NCBI RefSeq assembly: GCF_030068605.1
Contig: NZ_JASJOU010000001.1
Location: 186,001-250,000 of the forward strand
From: Xanthocytophaga agilis
GTDB lineage: Bacteria; Bacteroidota; Bacteroidia; Cytophagales; 172606-1
Direction of reading: 5' to 3'
Length of the DNA: 64,000 nucleotides
Each line of letters opens with the position of its first letter. Positions within the stretch are counted from its first letter, which is position 1. This document shows, in pieces, positions 45,504 through 54,370 of the stretch. Below the pieces are notes generated by a model that had not been told where the DNA came from, did no database searches, and was given only the letters and a program-made list of their open reading frames with translations. A program made the position numbers and the translations under genes.

Positions 45504-46202
45504 ATGGTTTTTATAGGAGTTGGAATAGGAATTTTGTTTTTGGCTATTATTTGGGTTTGTGTAATGGGTGATGATATCAGATATCCCCGAAGTGTGTATC
45601 CAAAAGTAAAAGAAAAGAAAATTGAACCAGCCTTTATTCCGGATGAAAACGAAAGAAGAAAAGAGGCAAAACAGTTTGTGAAAAGATTAGACGAACTGGG
45701 ATATTTTAAATGGACAGCTCCGGAAGACCTTAGAAAAGTAAAGGCTCATATTGCTAAGTATTACGCCGAAGAGCAAACTTTTTATACACTTAGTGATGAA
45801 AATAACGCTTCTCTGGATTATCGGGTCTATTATTTAGATCCTGAGACTATATATCATGGTGGGGCAAAATCAGAGTTTTTGAGACTAGGTCGGACACTGG
45901 AGAAGCTAGGATTTGTTGTAGACCGGATTGAGCAAACTCTGACAGAGCAGAATACCTATACTTTGTATATGAATGATCTTGAATTTGATCTTATCCCTTC
46001 TCCATATAATTCTCCTGATGTCGATTTCGTTGATTTTATCAATGTGATTTTACAGAAAGAATTAAAAGTAGAAGAACGGTTATATGCTATAGAAGGAGAC
46101 TATAGCTATGAAGTTATCTTTCTGGATCAAAAATTGTATCAGTTTCTTCGACAATCCAATCTGGATGAAAAAAGTAAACCTTTCCTGCTGAAAGGGTATT
46201 GA
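45504..46202 (+). CDS. Membrane-anchored protein of unknown function
   Basis: A 232-residue protein beginning with one transmembrane helix (about 3-20, VFIGVGIGILFLAIIWVCV), then a soluble, acidic region rich in Tyr and Glu. No family is recognised. It begins 2 bases after the symporter stop, so expression is translationally coupled and a link to the transporter is possible. The soluble part has alternating helix and strand composition. Confidence 0.8.
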   Translation: MVFIGVGIGILFLAIIWVCVMGDDIRYPRSVYPKVKEKKIEPAFIPDENERRKEAKQFVKRLDELGYFKWTAPEDLRKVKAHIAKYYAEEQTFYTLSDENNASLDYRVYYLDPETIYHGGAKSEFLRLGRTLEKLGFVVDRIEQTLTEQNTYTLYMNDLEFDLIPSPYNSPDVDFVDFINVILQKELKVEERLYAIEGDYSYEVIFLDQKLYQFLRQSNLDEKSKPFLLKGY

Positions 46203-48993: not shown

Positions 48994-50199
48994 ATGGCAC
49001 AAAGCCCTTCAGTAGGGGATATATCCCGAATCTGCATACAACTTTTATTGAAAGAGCCCTTTTATGGACACTTTCTTATGGGGATTCCCAAAGAATTCTC
49101 TGATAAGATAAAGACTGCGGCGGTTGCGCTCTATAAAAAACAGATGATCAAATTAATGGTCAATGCTGAATTCTGGAATTCCCTCTCAGAGATTCACCAG
49201 TACGGATTGATCAAACATGAAGTTCTGCATATTGTGTTGCGGCACTTGATTCTGCAAAAAAGCTTTCCTCAGAAGAGATTATTTAACATCGCTGCTGATC
49301 TGGTTATCAACCAATATATTCAGTCTGAACAATTACCAGAAGGGGGACTAACCCTGGAGATGTTTCAACCCCTGTTGTCTAAATACGGTATTACACTGGA
49401 AAAGAAACAGGGGGTAGATTACTACTATCAGCAGTTAGCCAAAGTAATGCACTCTGTTAATTCCTCTGGTGAAGGTTGTTCAGATCCTATCTTCACTATT
49501 TTTAATGAAGACAATGATGAACTGGACAAACACTCTTACTGGGATGAGTTTCGGGAACTGGAAAGTGGTGAACTGAAAGTAATGGAGCATCAACTAAAGC
49601 GATTAACCAAGACGACTCTGGACAGGGTTAAACCCAAAAACTGGGGTGGACTGCCTTTGGATCTGGTTGAGGCATTGCAACAGATTGTATTGGAAGAACC
49701 CAAAATAAACTGGAAAAGGGCTCTACGACTTTTCGCTGCCTCCAGCAATAGCACCTATGTGAAAAATACCATTCGTCGGGCATCCAAACGGTATGGAACG
49801 GTACCCGGAATTAAACTGAAACGCCGACAGGAACTACTAATAGCCATTGATACATCCGGCAGTATAAACCTGGAAGAGGTACAAAGTTTCTTTCAGGAGA
49901 TCTATCATATCTGGAGGCAGGGCTGTATTATCACCATAGTAGAATGTGATGCCAAAATTCATAGAGAGTATGAATTTAAAGGAAAGTTTCCTGCCGATTT
50001 TCAGGGAGGAGGAGGAAACGACTATACAGAGGCTGTGGAGTTAGCAAATAAAACTATGCCAGATGGATTGATCTATTTTACGGATGGACACGTGTCTACA
50101 CCCGATATAAAACCTCGTATGCCTGCCCTTTGGGTTATTTCAGTAGATGGCTCAACCCAATACAGAGCGAAAGATGAGCGGGTAATTCAAATGAATTAG
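48994..50199 (+). CDS. DUF2201-type metallopeptidase-like/VWA domain protein
   Basis: A 401-residue cytosolic protein, first gene of a three-gene operon. The N-terminal half has a zinc-peptidase-like motif His75-Glu76-x-x-His79 (KHEVLHIVLRH), followed by NIAADLVINQYI, the pattern of the DUF2201 putative metallopeptidase domain. The C-terminal half (about 275-400) is a VWA-like domain with MIDAS motif DTSGS at 286-290 and YFTDGHVS at about 366. It resembles the VWA partners of MoxR ATPases, in which the VWA protein binds the ATPase and a client. Peptidase activity is possible but not shown. Confidence 0.88.
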   Translation: MAQSPSVGDISRICIQLLLKEPFYGHFLMGIPKEFSDKIKTAAVALYKKQMIKLMVNAEFWNSLSEIHQYGLIKHEVLHIVLRHLILQKSFPQKRLFNIAADLVINQYIQSEQLPEGGLTLEMFQPLLSKYGITLEKKQGVDYYYQQLAKVMHSVNSSGEGCSDPIFTIFNEDNDELDKHSYWDEFRELESGELKVMEHQLKRLTKTTLDRVKPKNWGGLPLDLVEALQQIVLEEPKINWKRALRLFAASSNSTYVKNTIRRASKRYGTVPGIKLKRRQELLIAIDTSGSINLEEVQSFFQEIYHIWRQGCIITIVECDAKIHREYEFKGKFPADFQGGGGNDYTEAVELANKTMPDGLIYFTDGHVSTPDIKPRMPALWVISVDGSTQYRAKDERVIQMN

Positions 50200-50270
50200 A
50201 TAAATACCTACTTTCAAGTAACAAAGTAACCATACATACTATTTTTTACTATTAAATTGATTGATCCTAC

Positions 50271-51380
50271 ATGGCAGCTTCTAATGGGTATGTTTTCTAT
50301 GGAGTAGAATCTACTTCGCAGGAAGTACGCAAATTTACCGAACATATATTAAGGGCCAATCTGGCAGCAGAAGAGAAAGGACACAAGAAAACGCCTGTTT
50401 GTATCTGGGGGACACATGGGATTGGAAAAACAGAAGTGGTTCAGCAGATTGCCAGAGATAATAACTACCAGTTTGTCTATATTGCTCCAGCCCAGTTTGA
50501 GGAAATGGGCGACCTGATTGGAATGCCCGCCATTGAAAATGGGAAAACCGTATTCCGTGCTCCGGAATGGGTGCCTACACAACCAGGACCGGGAGTCTTA
50601 TTGATTGATGACGTGAATAGGGCTGATGACCGGATTCTACGAGGGATTATGCAATTGTTGCAGAATTACGAACTGGTAAGCTGGAAGTTACCGTATCAGT
50701 GGCAGATTGTGTTGACTGCCAATCCCGATGGAGGCAATTATTCTGTAACACCTATGGATGATGCCATGCTGACTCGTATGATGCACATTACCATGAAGTT
50801 TGACAGCAAAGTATGGGCATTCTGGGCCGAGAAAGCAGGCGTAGACCCGAGAGGGATCAACTTTGTACTTACCTATCCGGAAGTGGCACACGGCAGTCGA
50901 ACTACACCTCGATCCCTTGTGCAGTTTTTTGATAGTATCAGCAGCATCAAAAGCTTGTCTGACGAATTGCCTCTGATTCAAATGCTGGCATCTTCCTGTC
51001 TGGACGAAGAAACTGTTACCTCGTTTATTTCCTATGTGCAGCAGAATCTGAGTGAGCTGATTTCGCCGGAAGAAATTTATGAAGCCAAGGATTTTTCCCG
51101 GCAGGTATACCATCCGGTTAAAAAGTGTGTAGACCAGGATGTGTTTCGGGTCGATATTATGGCTACCATCTGCACTCGTTTGATCAACCATCTGACTATT
51201 CAGAATATAAAGTTAAAACCTGAGCAGGTTAAGAATATACAGGAATTTATTAAGATAGATTTTCTGCCCAATGACTTGCGTCTTTCTTTGTTACAGGATC
51301 TGGTGCAATCTCCCAATGCAACACTAAAAATGGTGATGGCAGATCCGGAAGTAAGTCGGTTATTACTAAAGAAAATGTAA
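50271..51380 (+). CDS. MoxR-like AAA+ ATPase
   Basis: A 369-residue protein. Walker A is GTHGIGKT (Gly47-Thr54, Lys53). Walker B is LLIDDVNRA (Asp113-Asp114). Sensor 1 lies in VLTANPDG, and the arginine-finger region is DAMLTRMMHI. The C-terminal 150 residues are helical. It fits the MoxR/RavA branch of AAA+ proteins that act as chaperones with VWA partners. It lies 71 bases after the VWA gene and 3 bases before the LRR gene, a tight operon. It is predicted to remodel a target in an ATP-dependent way. Confidence 0.9.
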   Translation: MAASNGYVFYGVESTSQEVRKFTEHILRANLAAEEKGHKKTPVCIWGTHGIGKTEVVQQIARDNNYQFVYIAPAQFEEMGDLIGMPAIENGKTVFRAPEWVPTQPGPGVLLIDDVNRADDRILRGIMQLLQNYELVSWKLPYQWQIVLTANPDGGNYSVTPMDDAMLTRMMHITMKFDSKVWAFWAEKAGVDPRGINFVLTYPEVAHGSRTTPRSLVQFFDSISSIKSLSDELPLIQMLASSCLDEETVTSFISYVQQNLSELISPEEIYEAKDFSRQVYHPVKKCVDQDVFRVDIMATICTRLINHLTIQNIKLKPEQVKNIQEFIKIDFLPNDLRLSLLQDLVQSPNATLKMVMADPEVSRLLLKKM

Positions 51381-51383
51381 ACT

Positions 51384-54284
51384 ATGTCACTGGAACTGGA
51401 ATATCAACATTATTATTATCTGTGGGGAAGTGGGCACGAGGTGAAAGCTATTTACCTGTCGAAGCCTGTCCCTGTTTCTGAATTAAAAACACGAGTGCCT
51501 AATATAAAAGGAATTCATCTGGAATTTGATAAGACAGAGTTCAAACCTGCCCGAATCAATCACGATGAATATTTGCTGGAACTGTTACAGGCATTTCCGT
51601 TAAAAGAATTAAAGATTGACCGGAGCCGTATTACAACGATTCCGGAAGTTCTCTGGACGCACCCATTGGAATTGCTGCAAATAGAATATGCTTCAGAACT
51701 AAAATCTATTTATGTTCCGGATGATGCTACATTAGTGCTGGAAAAACTCGTGATTAATGGAGAAGATACTGCGGTTAGCCCCAATCTATTTTCATCACCT
51801 GTTTTACATGAAGTCAACGTAACAGGGGTTCAGAGAGGACTAGAAGGTATAGATAAAGCTGTTACTCTTAAAAGACTTCAAATTGGTAACTATAAACATC
51901 AATCCCTGCCAATTGACTTTACGGCTTTACATCAGTTAGAGTATTTATCTATTGGTAATTCTGATAGTCTGGAGGTACTTCCGGATCTGACTGGACTAAC
52001 AGGTCTGAACGAATGTTATTTTTATAAATTGCCTGTACTGGCTCAGATGCCTGCTGGCTGGGATAAGTTGCAACAGCTGACAAACCTGAAGCTATCGAAG
52101 ATTGCCAGTGAAAAGACTCCTGTAACATTTAATTTCACACAACTTGATTCTCTAATACATCTGGAGGTCTTTTCCAGTCATTTCGCGGAAAATCCATTTG
52201 GGAAAATGCCTGCATTGACAGGAGTAGCTGTAACATACATGCCTGTTTCTGAGCTGCCTGCCTATCTTTTTCAAAGTCGACAACTTAAATGGCTGAAATT
52301 GGAAGGGTTACCACAATTAACAAAATGGCCGGAAGAAATGAAACAGTTTGACCAGTTGACTGTTTTGAATATACGAAGAACTGGTATTGAAACATTACCA
52401 GATTCGTTAGACCATCCTTTGCTGGAAAGGATATATCTGGAAGAACTGTCCCTGAAATCATTACCTGAGTGCTGGGCTCAACTAAAAAAGCTTACCTTGC
52501 TTTCCATAACGAATTGTCCGGATCTGGAAATACTTTCCAGTCTGGGAAAAGAGAACACTTCGCTGAGCCAGATAGAACTTACTAATTTACCAAAGTTAAG
52601 TGCGTTACCTGAGTCCTGGTGTCAACTGACAAAACTTGTTTTTTTAAGTATCAAAGATTGTCTCAACCTGGAGAAACTTTCTGATCTGGGAAAAGAAAAT
52701 TTTTCACTGGATGAGATAAGAATTTCAAACCTGCCAAAACTAACTGCATTGCCAGATTCCTGGGATGAATGTCCTGTCTTGGCAAAGCTGGAGATTCGCC
52801 AGACCGGACTTCGCCAGTTTCCTGATAGCTGGCAACATATGAGTCAGTTAGCAGAAATTCGAACTTCTGAAAATAACAATCTTCAGTATATACCTGGGGT
52901 AGTGGCCGTCTGGCCTTCCTTACAACAAAACTGGATTGCGGAAAAGTGTATTCCTGCACACTATAGGTCATATGTCCGTGATTTACCTCATTTGTTACAG
53001 GAAACAGGCTGTACAGCTGAACAGCGAAAGCTGATAGGAACTATCATCTTTGCAGGAAAACAGGCATTGGCATCTTTTCCCAATGTAAAAGATCTGTTGG
53101 TGAGTCTGGTTAACAGGAAAAATTCACAGATCCGGCAATTGGTTTGGGATAATCTGTCAGTTTTAAATGATAATGTACCTGTATCTGACAAACAAACTAC
53201 ATTCTCTGTCTCTATTTCTGGCAGTACAAAGCGGGCTAAAACCTATTACAAAGAAAAACTGAAAGCCAGTGGGTTTGCCTATCAACAAAAAATAAGTGCA
53301 GATACCCAATGGATCGTAGTAGGTGATGAGCTAACACTACCATCTGATTTTTGGAAATACCCCCACCGTTTTCTGTCAGAAACAGAGCTGGATACCTTTC
53401 TGGATCAGGAGCAGCCTGGTTTTATGACTGCTCTGGAACAACCGGAACTGGAAAATTTGCGAAAATTGGTTTGGTCTAATGATCCTGTGAATGAAGAATT
53501 AGTATTGGAGATGATCAAAGGAGGAGGAATTCCGGATGAATTTGTCCCGGATCTGCTGATCGTGGCAAAAACAACGAGAGAAAAAAAGATAAAGGATAAT
53601 TTGCGAAAGTTGCTGGCTCCGAAGCTATCTAAAGGCGCATCGCAGATTTTATCAAACCCGGTAAACCTGGGGCTAGGACGTTGCCCTTATTTACAGTATG
53701 AAAGAGTAGCTCCCGATTTTGATGTAGCTCAGATGGCTGTCTGTCATTATAAACGTACAGGCAAATTTTTGCAAAATTTTTTCTACCTGAAAAGTAGCCT
53801 GACCAATAGGTATCGAGCAGAGTTATTCAATCTCACTATTCCAGCTTTTACTGTAAAGCCACGCTATGTTACTTTGGGTGGCTGGAATTTTACAGATGCA
53901 GAGATTAACCAGATCCTGCAAATGGAAATATTTCAGGGACGATTAGAACGCCTGATATTGCCTAAATGCAATATAGCATCTATCATGGATTCATTGCTGC
54001 TTCACTCGGCAACATTACAGGATATTCAGGCATTTACGGATGAAAAGGTTGTACCTGCAGAACTGGAGAAGCTCTCCCGGCTGCAAAAGATTAACATTCA
54101 TGGAGATAAACTAAAGGAGATTCCCGACTTTTTACCACGATTAAAGTATCTGAAAGAGATATTTCTGTATAGCAAAGAAGCTCTTGTCGTGCCTGAGAAC
54201 TTTAAAGAACTGAAAAAAATGAAGAGGCTTTTGATACAGCCAATGCCTATCAATGCAGCTGATTTTAGCAATAAATTTATATAA
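51384..54284 (+). CDS. Large leucine-rich repeat protein with BRCT-like segment
   Basis: A 966-residue soluble protein without a signal peptide. Residues about 60-520 are irregular LRRs of the bacterial type with LPxSW turns (ALPDSW, QFPDSW). Residues 364-459 contain two 48-residue near-copies. A helical segment at about 535-600 is followed by a BRCT-like stretch at about 605-690 (FSVSISGSTKRAKTYYKEKL ... QWIVVGDE). A second LRR block closes the protein (about 835-966). It starts 3 bases after the MoxR gene, so it is likely the third component of that system, perhaps the recognition or scaffold subunit. BRCT assignment is by pattern only. Confidence 0.85.
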   Translation: MSLELEYQHYYYLWGSGHEVKAIYLSKPVPVSELKTRVPNIKGIHLEFDKTEFKPARINHDEYLLELLQAFPLKELKIDRSRITTIPEVLWTHPLELLQIEYASELKSIYVPDDATLVLEKLVINGEDTAVSPNLFSSPVLHEVNVTGVQRGLEGIDKAVTLKRLQIGNYKHQSLPIDFTALHQLEYLSIGNSDSLEVLPDLTGLTGLNECYFYKLPVLAQMPAGWDKLQQLTNLKLSKIASEKTPVTFNFTQLDSLIHLEVFSSHFAENPFGKMPALTGVAVTYMPVSELPAYLFQSRQLKWLKLEGLPQLTKWPEEMKQFDQLTVLNIRRTGIETLPDSLDHPLLERIYLEELSLKSLPECWAQLKKLTLLSITNCPDLEILSSLGKENTSLSQIELTNLPKLSALPESWCQLTKLVFLSIKDCLNLEKLSDLGKENFSLDEIRISNLPKLTALPDSWDECPVLAKLEIRQTGLRQFPDSWQHMSQLAEIRTSENNNLQYIPGVVAVWPSLQQNWIAEKCIPAHYRSYVRDLPHLLQETGCTAEQRKLIGTIIFAGKQALASFPNVKDLLVSLVNRKNSQIRQLVWDNLSVLNDNVPVSDKQTTFSVSISGSTKRAKTYYKEKLKASGFAYQQKISADTQWIVVGDELTLPSDFWKYPHRFLSETELDTFLDQEQPGFMTALEQPELENLRKLVWSNDPVNEELVLEMIKGGGIPDEFVPDLLIVAKTTREKKIKDNLRKLLAPKLSKGASQILSNPVNLGLGRCPYLQYERVAPDFDVAQMAVCHYKRTGKFLQNFFYLKSSLTNRYRAELFNLTIPAFTVKPRYVTLGGWNFTDAEINQILQMEIFQGRLERLILPKCNIASIMDSLLLHSATLQDIQAFTDEKVVPAELEKLSRLQKINIHGDKLKEIPDFLPRLKYLKEIFLYSKEALVVPENFKELKKMKRLLIQPMPINAADFSNKFI
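52473..52616 (+). repeat. LRR 144-bp tandem unit 1
   Basis: Encodes residues 364-411 (starts WAQLKKLTLLSI, ends LSALPES), in phase with the next unit. Confidence 0.85.
52617..52760 (+). repeat. LRR 144-bp tandem unit 2
   Basis: Encodes residues 412-459 (starts WCQLTKLVFLSI, ends LTALPDS), an in-frame near-copy of unit 1 with exactly the same length. Confidence 0.85.
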
Positions 54285-54312: not shown

Positions 54313-54370
54313 AGCCCTGCCAGTTATTGTATGTATGATAATACAATAACTGGCAGGGCTTCTGTTTTTT
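54313..54370 (+). terminator. Strong intrinsic terminator of the VWA-MoxR-LRR operon
   Basis: A perfect 20-bp stem (54313-54332 with 54341-54360), 8-base loop and a T-rich tail with six T. It closes the operon 29 bases after the LRR stop. Confidence 0.93.

Follow-up and report, generated by a model that had tools for sequence, protein, structure and literature searches.

Leucine-rich repeat proteins with a BRCT-like core accompany a DUF2201-type VWA-MoxR gene pair in Bacteroidota and Gammaproteobacteria

Background

Gene pairs for a MoxR-type AAA+ ATPase and a protein with a von Willebrand factor A (VWA) domain are widespread, and their targets are known in few cases. In the ternary conflict systems built around such pairs, the third component is VMAP, iSTAND, FtsH, a beta-propeller or TERNS3 (PMC7159879, PMC8195603). 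For the NorQD pair, PMC13036017 describes a finger of the VWA protein that inserts into the pore of the ATPase, and a linker of the VWA protein that is remodelled by the ATPase activity. Here we describe a three-gene set in which a VWA-MoxR pair is joined by a leucine-rich repeat (LRR) protein with a BRCT-like core. The set lies in a 64,000-nucleotide stretch of the Xanthocytophaga agilis genome (RefSeq assembly GCF_030068605.1, contig NZ_JASJOU010000001.1, positions 186,001 to 250,000), referred to below as the window. It consists of three open reading frames (ORFs) on the + strand, which encode a DUF2201 HExxH-VWA protein of 401 amino acids (ORF1, 48994-50199), a MoxR/midasin-clade AAA+ ATPase of 369 amino acids (ORF2, 50271-51380) and an LRR-BRCT-helical-LRR protein of 966 amino acids (ORF3, 51384-54284).

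Since the same set recurs elsewhere, we judge it to be more than a chance grouping, and we are highly confident that the VWA, AAA+ and LRR-BRCT parts belong together. That the LRR-BRCT proteins form the variable recognition side of a shared MoxR-VWA engine is a proposition that we consider evenly balanced.

Linkage of the three genes in other genomes

To describe the neighbourhoods of related ATPases, we scanned species genomes with the ATPase alignment, retained the best 80 of 209 relatives as loci and searched these stop-to-stop with profiles of the VWA protein and of the ORF3 core, i.e. its BRCT and helical domains. A VWA gene was found at 48 of the 80 AAA+ loci and a core at 33; both were present at 31 loci, VWA only at 17, core only at 2 and neither at 30. 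At both core-only loci, a contig end is no more than about 0.3 kb from the ATPase. Where both flanks extend for 8 kb or more (41 loci), 20 loci have VWA and core, 8 have VWA only, none has core only and 13 have neither. When the ATPase's neighbours, four to either side, were clustered at 74 loci (L044, L046, L066, L081, L101 and L118 not included), the VWA protein, at 43 loci, and the LRR family, at 32, were by far the most recurrent, followed by a cluster present at 8 loci.

Linked sets occur in Bacteroidota and in the Gammaproteobacteria Vibrio, Photobacterium, Ferrimonas and Microbulbifer, and the gene order differs among them. The window and many Bacteroidota have the order VWA>AAA>LRR, other loci (e.g. 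L066, L070, L101, L118) have LRR>VWA>AAA and two (L103, L112) have LRR>LRR>AAA>VWA, while in the four gammaproteobacterial genera the VWA>AAA pair is in divergent orientation to one to three LRR-BRCT genes. At least 13 changes of the linked-LRR label are needed on a quick ATPase tree, which indicates that the linkage has been lost or regained many times. An earlier sequence-only reading of the window had singled out the LRR gene as a third member of the VWA-MoxR set, and the recurrence at 31 of 80 loci in two phyla agrees with it. At a Photobacterium proteolyticum locus (L097:9477-9971), a VWA fragment and a short LRR ORF sit beside the ATPase in a genome with no core match; this locus looks decayed.

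Co-occurrence without linkage

The association between the LRR-BRCT family and the pair also held beyond adjacency. For this analysis, we took 27 of the 28 loci with flanks of at least 3 kb and no linked core (L091 excluded). The genome contained a core match elsewhere in 22 of these 27 cases (E <= 1e-8), 18 of which span at least 120 of the 139 model positions and 4 of which are partial, all being scored on the core alone. Likewise, where the ATPase is without a linked VWA (16 genomes), a DUF2201-VWA gene is present elsewhere in every case.

Presence and absence were compared in three sets of genomes. Among 59 relatives, the ATPase was found in 6 and a strong core in 7; all 6 are shared, and the seventh core genome is G002, which is 72% complete and whose core matches adjoin a VWA gene. 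In 149 genomes of the Saprospira order, the ATPase was present in 5 (truncated at a contig end in one and with an internal stop in another), the core in 6 and both in 4. The set of 395 genomes of the phylum contained 3 with the ATPase (E <= 1e-40), 3 with a strong core and 2 with both; here the best 5 ATPase and best 10 core candidates were scored per genome, so that absences are soft. Fisher's exact tests, which ignore kinship, gave p values of 1.6e-7 for the relatives, 3.8e-6 for the Saprospira order and 1.2e-4 for the phylum, and of 2.7e-6 without the own genus, 7.5e-5 without the seed genome and 0.010 without the own genome, respectively. Core matches weaker than 1e-10 were excluded from the counts, which concerns 33 of the 36 phylum genomes and 6 of the 13 relatives; the places listed for them are mainly in the BRCT half and DNA-ligase-like (one checked). 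One genome (G095, by its contig position the same as G487 of the Saprospira-order set) has a 42% identical ATPase and no core.

In some genomes, one or two engines were found beside several to many cores. There are 2 ATPases and 12 core matches in the X. agilis genome (G000), 2 and 11 in the same-genus genome G001, and in G051 a single ATPase with 17 core matches at E <= 1e-5, of which 8 are at or below 1e-10.

A second locus in the Xanthocytophaga agilis genome

A search of the host genome (9.77 Mb in 66 contigs) for DUF2201 uncovered a second copy at locus L003. The order there is LRR-BRCT (three genes), VWA, LRR-BRCT (a fourth gene) and AAA, and a small ORF separates the first LRR-BRCT gene from the second. 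The VWA proteins of the two loci are 41% identical (paralogue P0008) and the ATPases 57% identical, and the best local matches of the four L003 LRR-BRCT proteins to ORF3 cover or include the BRCT and helical core. In all, the core profile has 12 clear matches in this genome (E < 1e-10), two of which span the helical half only; 5 are located at the two engine loci and 7 elsewhere. The sequence-only reading treated an LRR gene usually found apart from the pair as evidence against a common system, and on this point the outcome is divided: the linkage recurs across genomes, and in the own genome no more than 5 of the 12 core matches lie at VWA-MoxR loci.

On contig 15 (L039:12036-16500), a tandem array of six ORFs of 98-379 amino acids lies downstream of a full-core gene; each opens with the core's helical half (reading EKENIIRLLLSGQE...GLQLA or nearly so), and five have LRR patterns. 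On contig 4 (L042:8082-9945), adjacent genes for 305 and 303 amino acids combine the helical half with LRR patterns and are without the BRCT half. The genome also contains four WGR-domain matches off the operon contig, on contig 23 (30976, 99123) and contig 3 (633404, 634539).

Domain structure of the LRR-BRCT protein

ORF3 matches Pfam LRR families, for example LRR_14 at 4e-19. An AlphaFold2 model of the full protein (14-sequence alignment, mean pLDDT 85, pTM 0.59) and a second one of residues 597-857 (47 sequences, mean pLDDT 92, pTM 0.84), together with alignments, point to four parts. The first is an N-terminal LRR solenoid at about residues 40-520 (51501-52943), which is predicted from the secondary structure of the model and is the fastest-evolving part. 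Helices separate it in the model from a predicted BRCT domain at about residues 608-678 (53205-53417), for which the support in ORF3 is indirect and comes from relatives, the family alignment and the model. A conserved helical domain follows at about residues 686-830 (53439-53873), with the family signature S..D..N...ALEM...GG.P as seen in the alignments and the model, and a modelled short C-terminal LRR block at about residues 851-952 (53934-54239) ends the protein. All coordinates refer to the + strand.

ORF3 itself is too divergent for a Pfam BRCT match at E <= 0.1. The Pfam BRCT model scores 21.5 bits in paralogue P0006, against a cut-off of 21.3, and 23.5 bits in the Flavobacterium limi relative, and it matches 24 of 52 LRR-BRCT family members at E <= 0.01 (the 52 being drawn from 66 core proteins, with loci close to others excluded). 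In a Foldseek search with the model of residues 597-857, most of the 50 matches listed have BRCT in the title or come from BRCT proteins, including RFC1, Rev1, XRCC1, Dbf4 and TopBP1; the probabilities are high and the E-values weak, with 0.04 as the best. The family profile also weakly matches, across its BRCT half, ORFs of mostly about 670-710 amino acids, and the one that was checked is an NAD-dependent DNA ligase with a BRCT domain of its own. As judged from the modelled fold and the family alignment, the core of ORF3 includes a divergent BRCT domain.

Some positions of the core stand out by their conservation. Gly613 of ORF3, the glycine after the first BRCT strand, is conserved in 44 of 45 core sequences, as is Gly715, the second glycine of GG.P, and Ser698 is conserved in 40. 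The T-H pair typical of BRCT domains is present in 34 (T) and 31 (H) of the 45 sequences, and ORF3 has Q-W there. Phosphate-binding BRCT domains have a serine or threonine before the conserved glycine; 28 of 45 sequences have L, C, A or V at this position, and 4, including ORF3, have serine.

Among the 52 family members, the 25 commonest of 35 Pfam families are all LRR, BRCT, TPR or WGR. The F. limi LRR-BRCT protein (L112:3516-6983, the same as L035:3320-6790) has an N-terminal WGR domain and TPRs, and a 317-amino-acid ORF without Pfam match sits between the LRR-BRCT genes and the ATPase gene at L112. The type III effector names XopAE, XopAC and XopL, obtained for ORF3 from NCBIfam, were rejected as LRR cross-matches, as they reach 119 of 600, 101 of 450 and 91 of 500 bits of the respective cut-offs.

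The VWA protein, the ATPase and the layout of the locus

ORF1 matches Pfam DUF2201_N (2e-13) and the VWA-like DUF2201 (7e-18), both above the curated cut-offs, in keeping with an N-terminal putative metallopeptidase-like domain and a C-terminal VWA domain with a metal ion-dependent adhesion site (MIDAS). The HExxHxxxxH motif (HEVLHIVLRH, residues 75-84) is at 49216-49245 and the MIDAS motif DTSGS (residues 286-290) at 49849-49863, both on the + strand. The family profile hit a single PDB chain at E 0.84, which was taken as chance.

To examine how well these motifs are kept, we inspected 53 VWA ORFs from the collected loci, some of them redundant. HExxHxxxxH was present in 44, HQxxHxxxxH in 6 and neither in 3 (2 of these fragments), so that the catalytic position has 44 Glu versus 6 Gln across 50 intact motifs. 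The change from Glu to Gln was seen at five distinct loci (L064, L070, L103, L112, L118), four of them with a linked core, and all three histidines are kept. From this pattern, metal binding would seem more important than catalysis at the three-His site, which we read as a metal site at which proteolysis, if any, would be optional. The MIDAS (DTSGS, DTSAS or DSSGS) is intact in 51 of the 53.

ORF2 matches Pfam AAA_5 (1e-9), with Walker A (GTHGIGKT) at 50409-50432 and Walker B (IDDVNRAD) at 50604-50627, both on the + strand. Walker A is present in all 82 AAA ORFs and the Walker B pattern in 72 of them, and the top PDB match of the family profile is Midasin (2e-22). The AAA_5 match, the Walker motifs and the Midasin profile match place ORF2, on sequence grounds, in the MoxR/midasin clade of AAA+ proteins, and the gene-linked VWA protein with its MIDAS makes this a MoxR-VWA pair.

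The gaps between the genes are 71 bases (ORF1-ORF2) and 3 bases (ORF2-ORF3). An intrinsic terminator is predicted at 54313-54360 (+ strand), with a perfect 20-bp stem formed by an inverted repeat, an 8-nt loop and a T-rich tail that reads TCTGTTTTTT directly 3' of the repeat. The coordinates, gaps and stem all confirm the three-gene + strand set with a stem terminator that the sequence-only reading had described, and the DUF2201, AAA_5 and LRR matches, with BRCT brought in through the relatives and the model, uphold its assignment of a VWA-MoxR pair plus a third LRR/BRCT protein. As classes, terminator-like patterns were not above shuffles (2 found, 4.6 expected), and promoter-like patterns were at chance (15 found, 15.5 expected).

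Evolutionary rates

To quantify the constraint on the different parts, we calculated ratios of nonsynonymous to synonymous substitutions (dN/dS) against X. flavus. The values were 0.007 for the ATPase and 0.035 for the VWA protein versus 0.306 for the N-terminal LRR part of ORF3 (residues 1-515), while the rest of ORF3 gave 0.10 (BRCT), 0.074 (helical) and 0.07 (C-terminal LRR). At the second locus, the ratios were 0.014 for the ATPase, 0.087 for the VWA protein and 0.08-0.21 for three LRR-BRCT genes. Five neighbouring genes yielded 0.016-0.27, the highest value being that of a 232-amino-acid ORF at 45504-46202 of the window, far above the other four. By these ratios the engine is conserved while the LRR part drifts or adapts. 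Changes in the LRR part were not enriched on strand-exposed positions (11 of 101 versus 15 of 172, p 0.67); diversification of the exposed face was rejected for want of such enrichment, and the changes as distributed do not demonstrate adaptation of the LRR part.

Proposed mechanism

In the mechanism that we propose, the MoxR/midasin-type ATPase, expected to be a hexamer, would form an engine together with the DUF2201 VWA protein. By analogy with NorD and NorQ, the VWA protein may couple to the AAA+ ring, with its MIDAS gripping a partner. The variable N-terminal LRR arrays would recognise different ligands or complexes, while the conserved BRCT and helical core could serve as a common handle by which one engine engages every member of the family. 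ATP hydrolysis would then pull on, or release, the LRR protein or its bound partner. We propose that the core acts as handle and that the LRRs form the recognition end, since it is the core that the paralogues have in common.

Several observations weigh against this proposal. A linked core is absent from 17 of the 48 loci with a VWA gene, and 5 of the 27 genomes without a linked core have no core at E <= 1e-8. One genome (G330) has a core and neither a VWA nor an ATPase match, and two others (G592 and G612) have a core and no ATPase match. The pair occurs without an LRR-BRCT neighbour in two phages and may act alone. The independent-pairs test on the ATPase tree rested on only 2 pairs (starred branches), and to these points are added the kinship ignored by the Fisher tests and the lack of enrichment on exposed LRR positions.

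A rather unlikely alternative is that the pair is an assembly chaperone, and that the LRR-BRCT proteins are clients matured or removed by it from a complex, perhaps a DNA-bound one. Midasin, the top PDB profile match of the ATPase, strips assembly factors, NorQD matures its target, and BRCT and WGR, the former found in the family and the latter in one member, are modules of DNA repair proteins; the ATPase is also almost invariant. However, the many variable partners (12 cores for 2 ATPases in X. agilis, 17 for 1 in G051) fit recognition better than one fixed client, and the preponderance of L, C, A or V over serine before the BRCT glycine likewise argues against it.

We regard it as unlikely that the set is an anti-phage or conflict system in which invaders would be detected by the LRRs and a response set off by the MoxR-VWA engine, a scheme already put forward for the known ternary systems. 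In its favour are a grammar shared with the MoxR-vWA ternary systems (PMC7159879), the variable repeat protein and the patchy distribution, with the ATPase in 3 of 395 phylum genomes, as well as the genes preceding the set at L059, the PD-T4-2_B match and the caspase domains among the neighbours described next. To assess the surroundings, we searched 122 of the 145 listed neighbouring proteins, from 21 of 22 loci (L066 excluded). Among the 25 of 180 Pfam families listed, none was found on more than 3 proteins, and most are hydrolases, regulators, transporters and other enzymes; Peptidase_C14 (caspase) was on 3 of the 122. PADLOC models matched with 64 families at E <= 1e-10, 25 of which are listed, each on one protein, and a rescan of nine neighbours singly placed most of these on four genes at L059. 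At this locus, from a Bacteroidia metagenome-assembled genome (L059:287-12735), the VWA-AAA-core set lies directly downstream, on the same strand, of MTase_III, REase_III-like, DndD-like and DndH-like genes. Single matches were HEAT-ARM_XIII on one L055 gene and PD-T4-2_B (8.7e-60) on one further neighbour, and the 52 LRR-BRCT proteins gave weak matches to WGR_XIII (two proteins) and PDC-S48 (one).

The defence reading is opposed by the finding that several PADLOC families fall on adjacent genes at L059 alone of the 21 neighbourhoods, a raw count based on the 25 of 64 families listed and on nine of 122 proteins rescanned; a link to defence islands, which the sequence-only reading had entertained, did not emerge. 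The 52 LRR-BRCT proteins match 35 Pfam families, and the 25 that are listed include no effector domain. Furthermore, no ATPase relative of more than 60% identity was found in 72,556 plasmids or 50,697 phages, nor any such VWA relative in the phages, and a mobile-element hypothesis was rejected on the searches with these two proteins. Distant relatives in phages, all below 60% identity, amounted to 309 records for the ATPase and 191 for the VWA protein.

It is very unlikely that the system works by regulated proteolysis, in which DUF2201_N, as an active zinc protease, would cleave the LRR-BRCT protein or its ligand after firing of the engine: HExxHxxxxH is kept in 44 of 53 VWA ORFs, but the Glu is replaced by Gln in 6 ORFs from five loci with all three histidines retained, and four of these loci have a linked core. 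That the LRR gene came as a mere passenger to lie next to a VWA-MoxR pair unrelated to it, as 7 of 12 own-genome core matches away from the two engine loci might suggest, is scarcely credible given the linkage in two phyla in different gene orders and the co-occurrence of unlinked genes.

Under the proposal of a shared engine with variable LRR-BRCT recognition proteins, the genome comparisons identify a candidate family of partners for the DUF2201 branch, with a conserved handle of BRCT plus helical domain, and indicates that one or two engines can share a genome with many variable LRR proteins. This allows two questions to be put to a concrete test, namely which target a MoxR-VWA engine remodels and whether a common motor serves a repertoire of LRR receptors in bacteria.

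Comparison with known systems

We know of no LRR partner and no DUF2201 metallo-domain in NorQ-NorD. That system has in common with ours a MoxR ATPase that acts through a VWA protein (PMC13036017; PMC9976466, as mentioned in PMC11432383), and differs in its target, which is nitric oxide reductase.

The E. coli genes for YehL, YehM, YehP and YehQ, with YehF (PF05406, WGR) and YehI (L123), also combine MoxR and VWA genes with nearby large proteins and a WGR protein, and the WGR domain is shared by YehF and the F. limi LRR-BRCT protein. Unlike the proteins described here, YehP belongs to VWA_CoxE, YehI to DUF4132 and YehM to DUF5682. Membership in the Yeh system was rejected on these domains and on hhalign comparisons of the family profiles with single E. 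coli Yeh sequences, which gave no family-level similarity (probabilities of 1.1 and 1.8). Midasin (Rea1), the closest AAA+ protein in the PDB by profile, has the logic of AAA+ plus MIDAS in common with the set; it is a single giant eukaryotic chain and, to our knowledge, has no LRR-BRCT partner.

Similar pairs are found in large phages. Of three phage stretches read, AAA and VWA are adjacent in two, Moorella phage MTATph1 and Alishewanella phage Slickus01 (phrog_1297, phrog_1314), where the AAA match adjoins a DUF2201-type VWA protein with HExxHxxxxH and DTSGS that is 28% (MTATph1) or 25% (Slickus01) identical to ORF1. The Slickus01 ATPase match is weak (profile E 3e-10, no BLASTP match). The two pairs are at L175:2407-4637 and L176:2383-4676, and the VWA protein is annotated as an HNH endonuclease in one and as a metallopeptidase in the other. 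A candidate VWA beside MoxR in Vibrio phage phiKT1024 was rejected, as the neighbour is not a VWA protein. No LRR-BRCT core was found in the proteins tested of MTATph1 and Slickus01. Because AAA and VWA adjoin in these two phages, the pair also exists without LRR-BRCT, and we take the LRR-BRCT protein to be a partner of the pair in some bacteria.

Membership in the described ternary systems was rejected. VMAP, iSTAND, FtsH and propeller domains were found neither on ORF3 (Pfam, NCBIfam, PADLOC) nor among the 25 of 35 families listed for the 52 members, and fused effector domains were likewise absent from ORF1, ORF3 and that same list. The bpMoxR model did not match the ATPase (P0002) at E <= 0.1, and the subsystem-4 P-loop is often GXXXTAKS versus GTHGIGKT here. 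The main text of PMC7159879 contains neither BRCT, bpX, WGR nor leucine-rich, and LRR once, within LRRK2 in a reference; PMC8195603 contains neither BRCT nor WGR and names LRR only in general or other settings. We recognised no description of a DUF2201-MoxR-LRR/BRCT set in the open PMC literature, papers naming DUF2201 being left aside. What the set shares with the MoxR-vWA ternary conflict systems (Kaur et al. 2020, PMC7159879; further classes in PMC8195603) is a MoxR-type AAA+ protein, a VWA protein, a variable third component and repeat-rich partners; what sets it apart is the LRR-BRCT-helical third component and the DUF2201-type VWA protein. We read the set as a ternary system of the MoxR-VWA type whose third component, the LRR-BRCT protein, is new.

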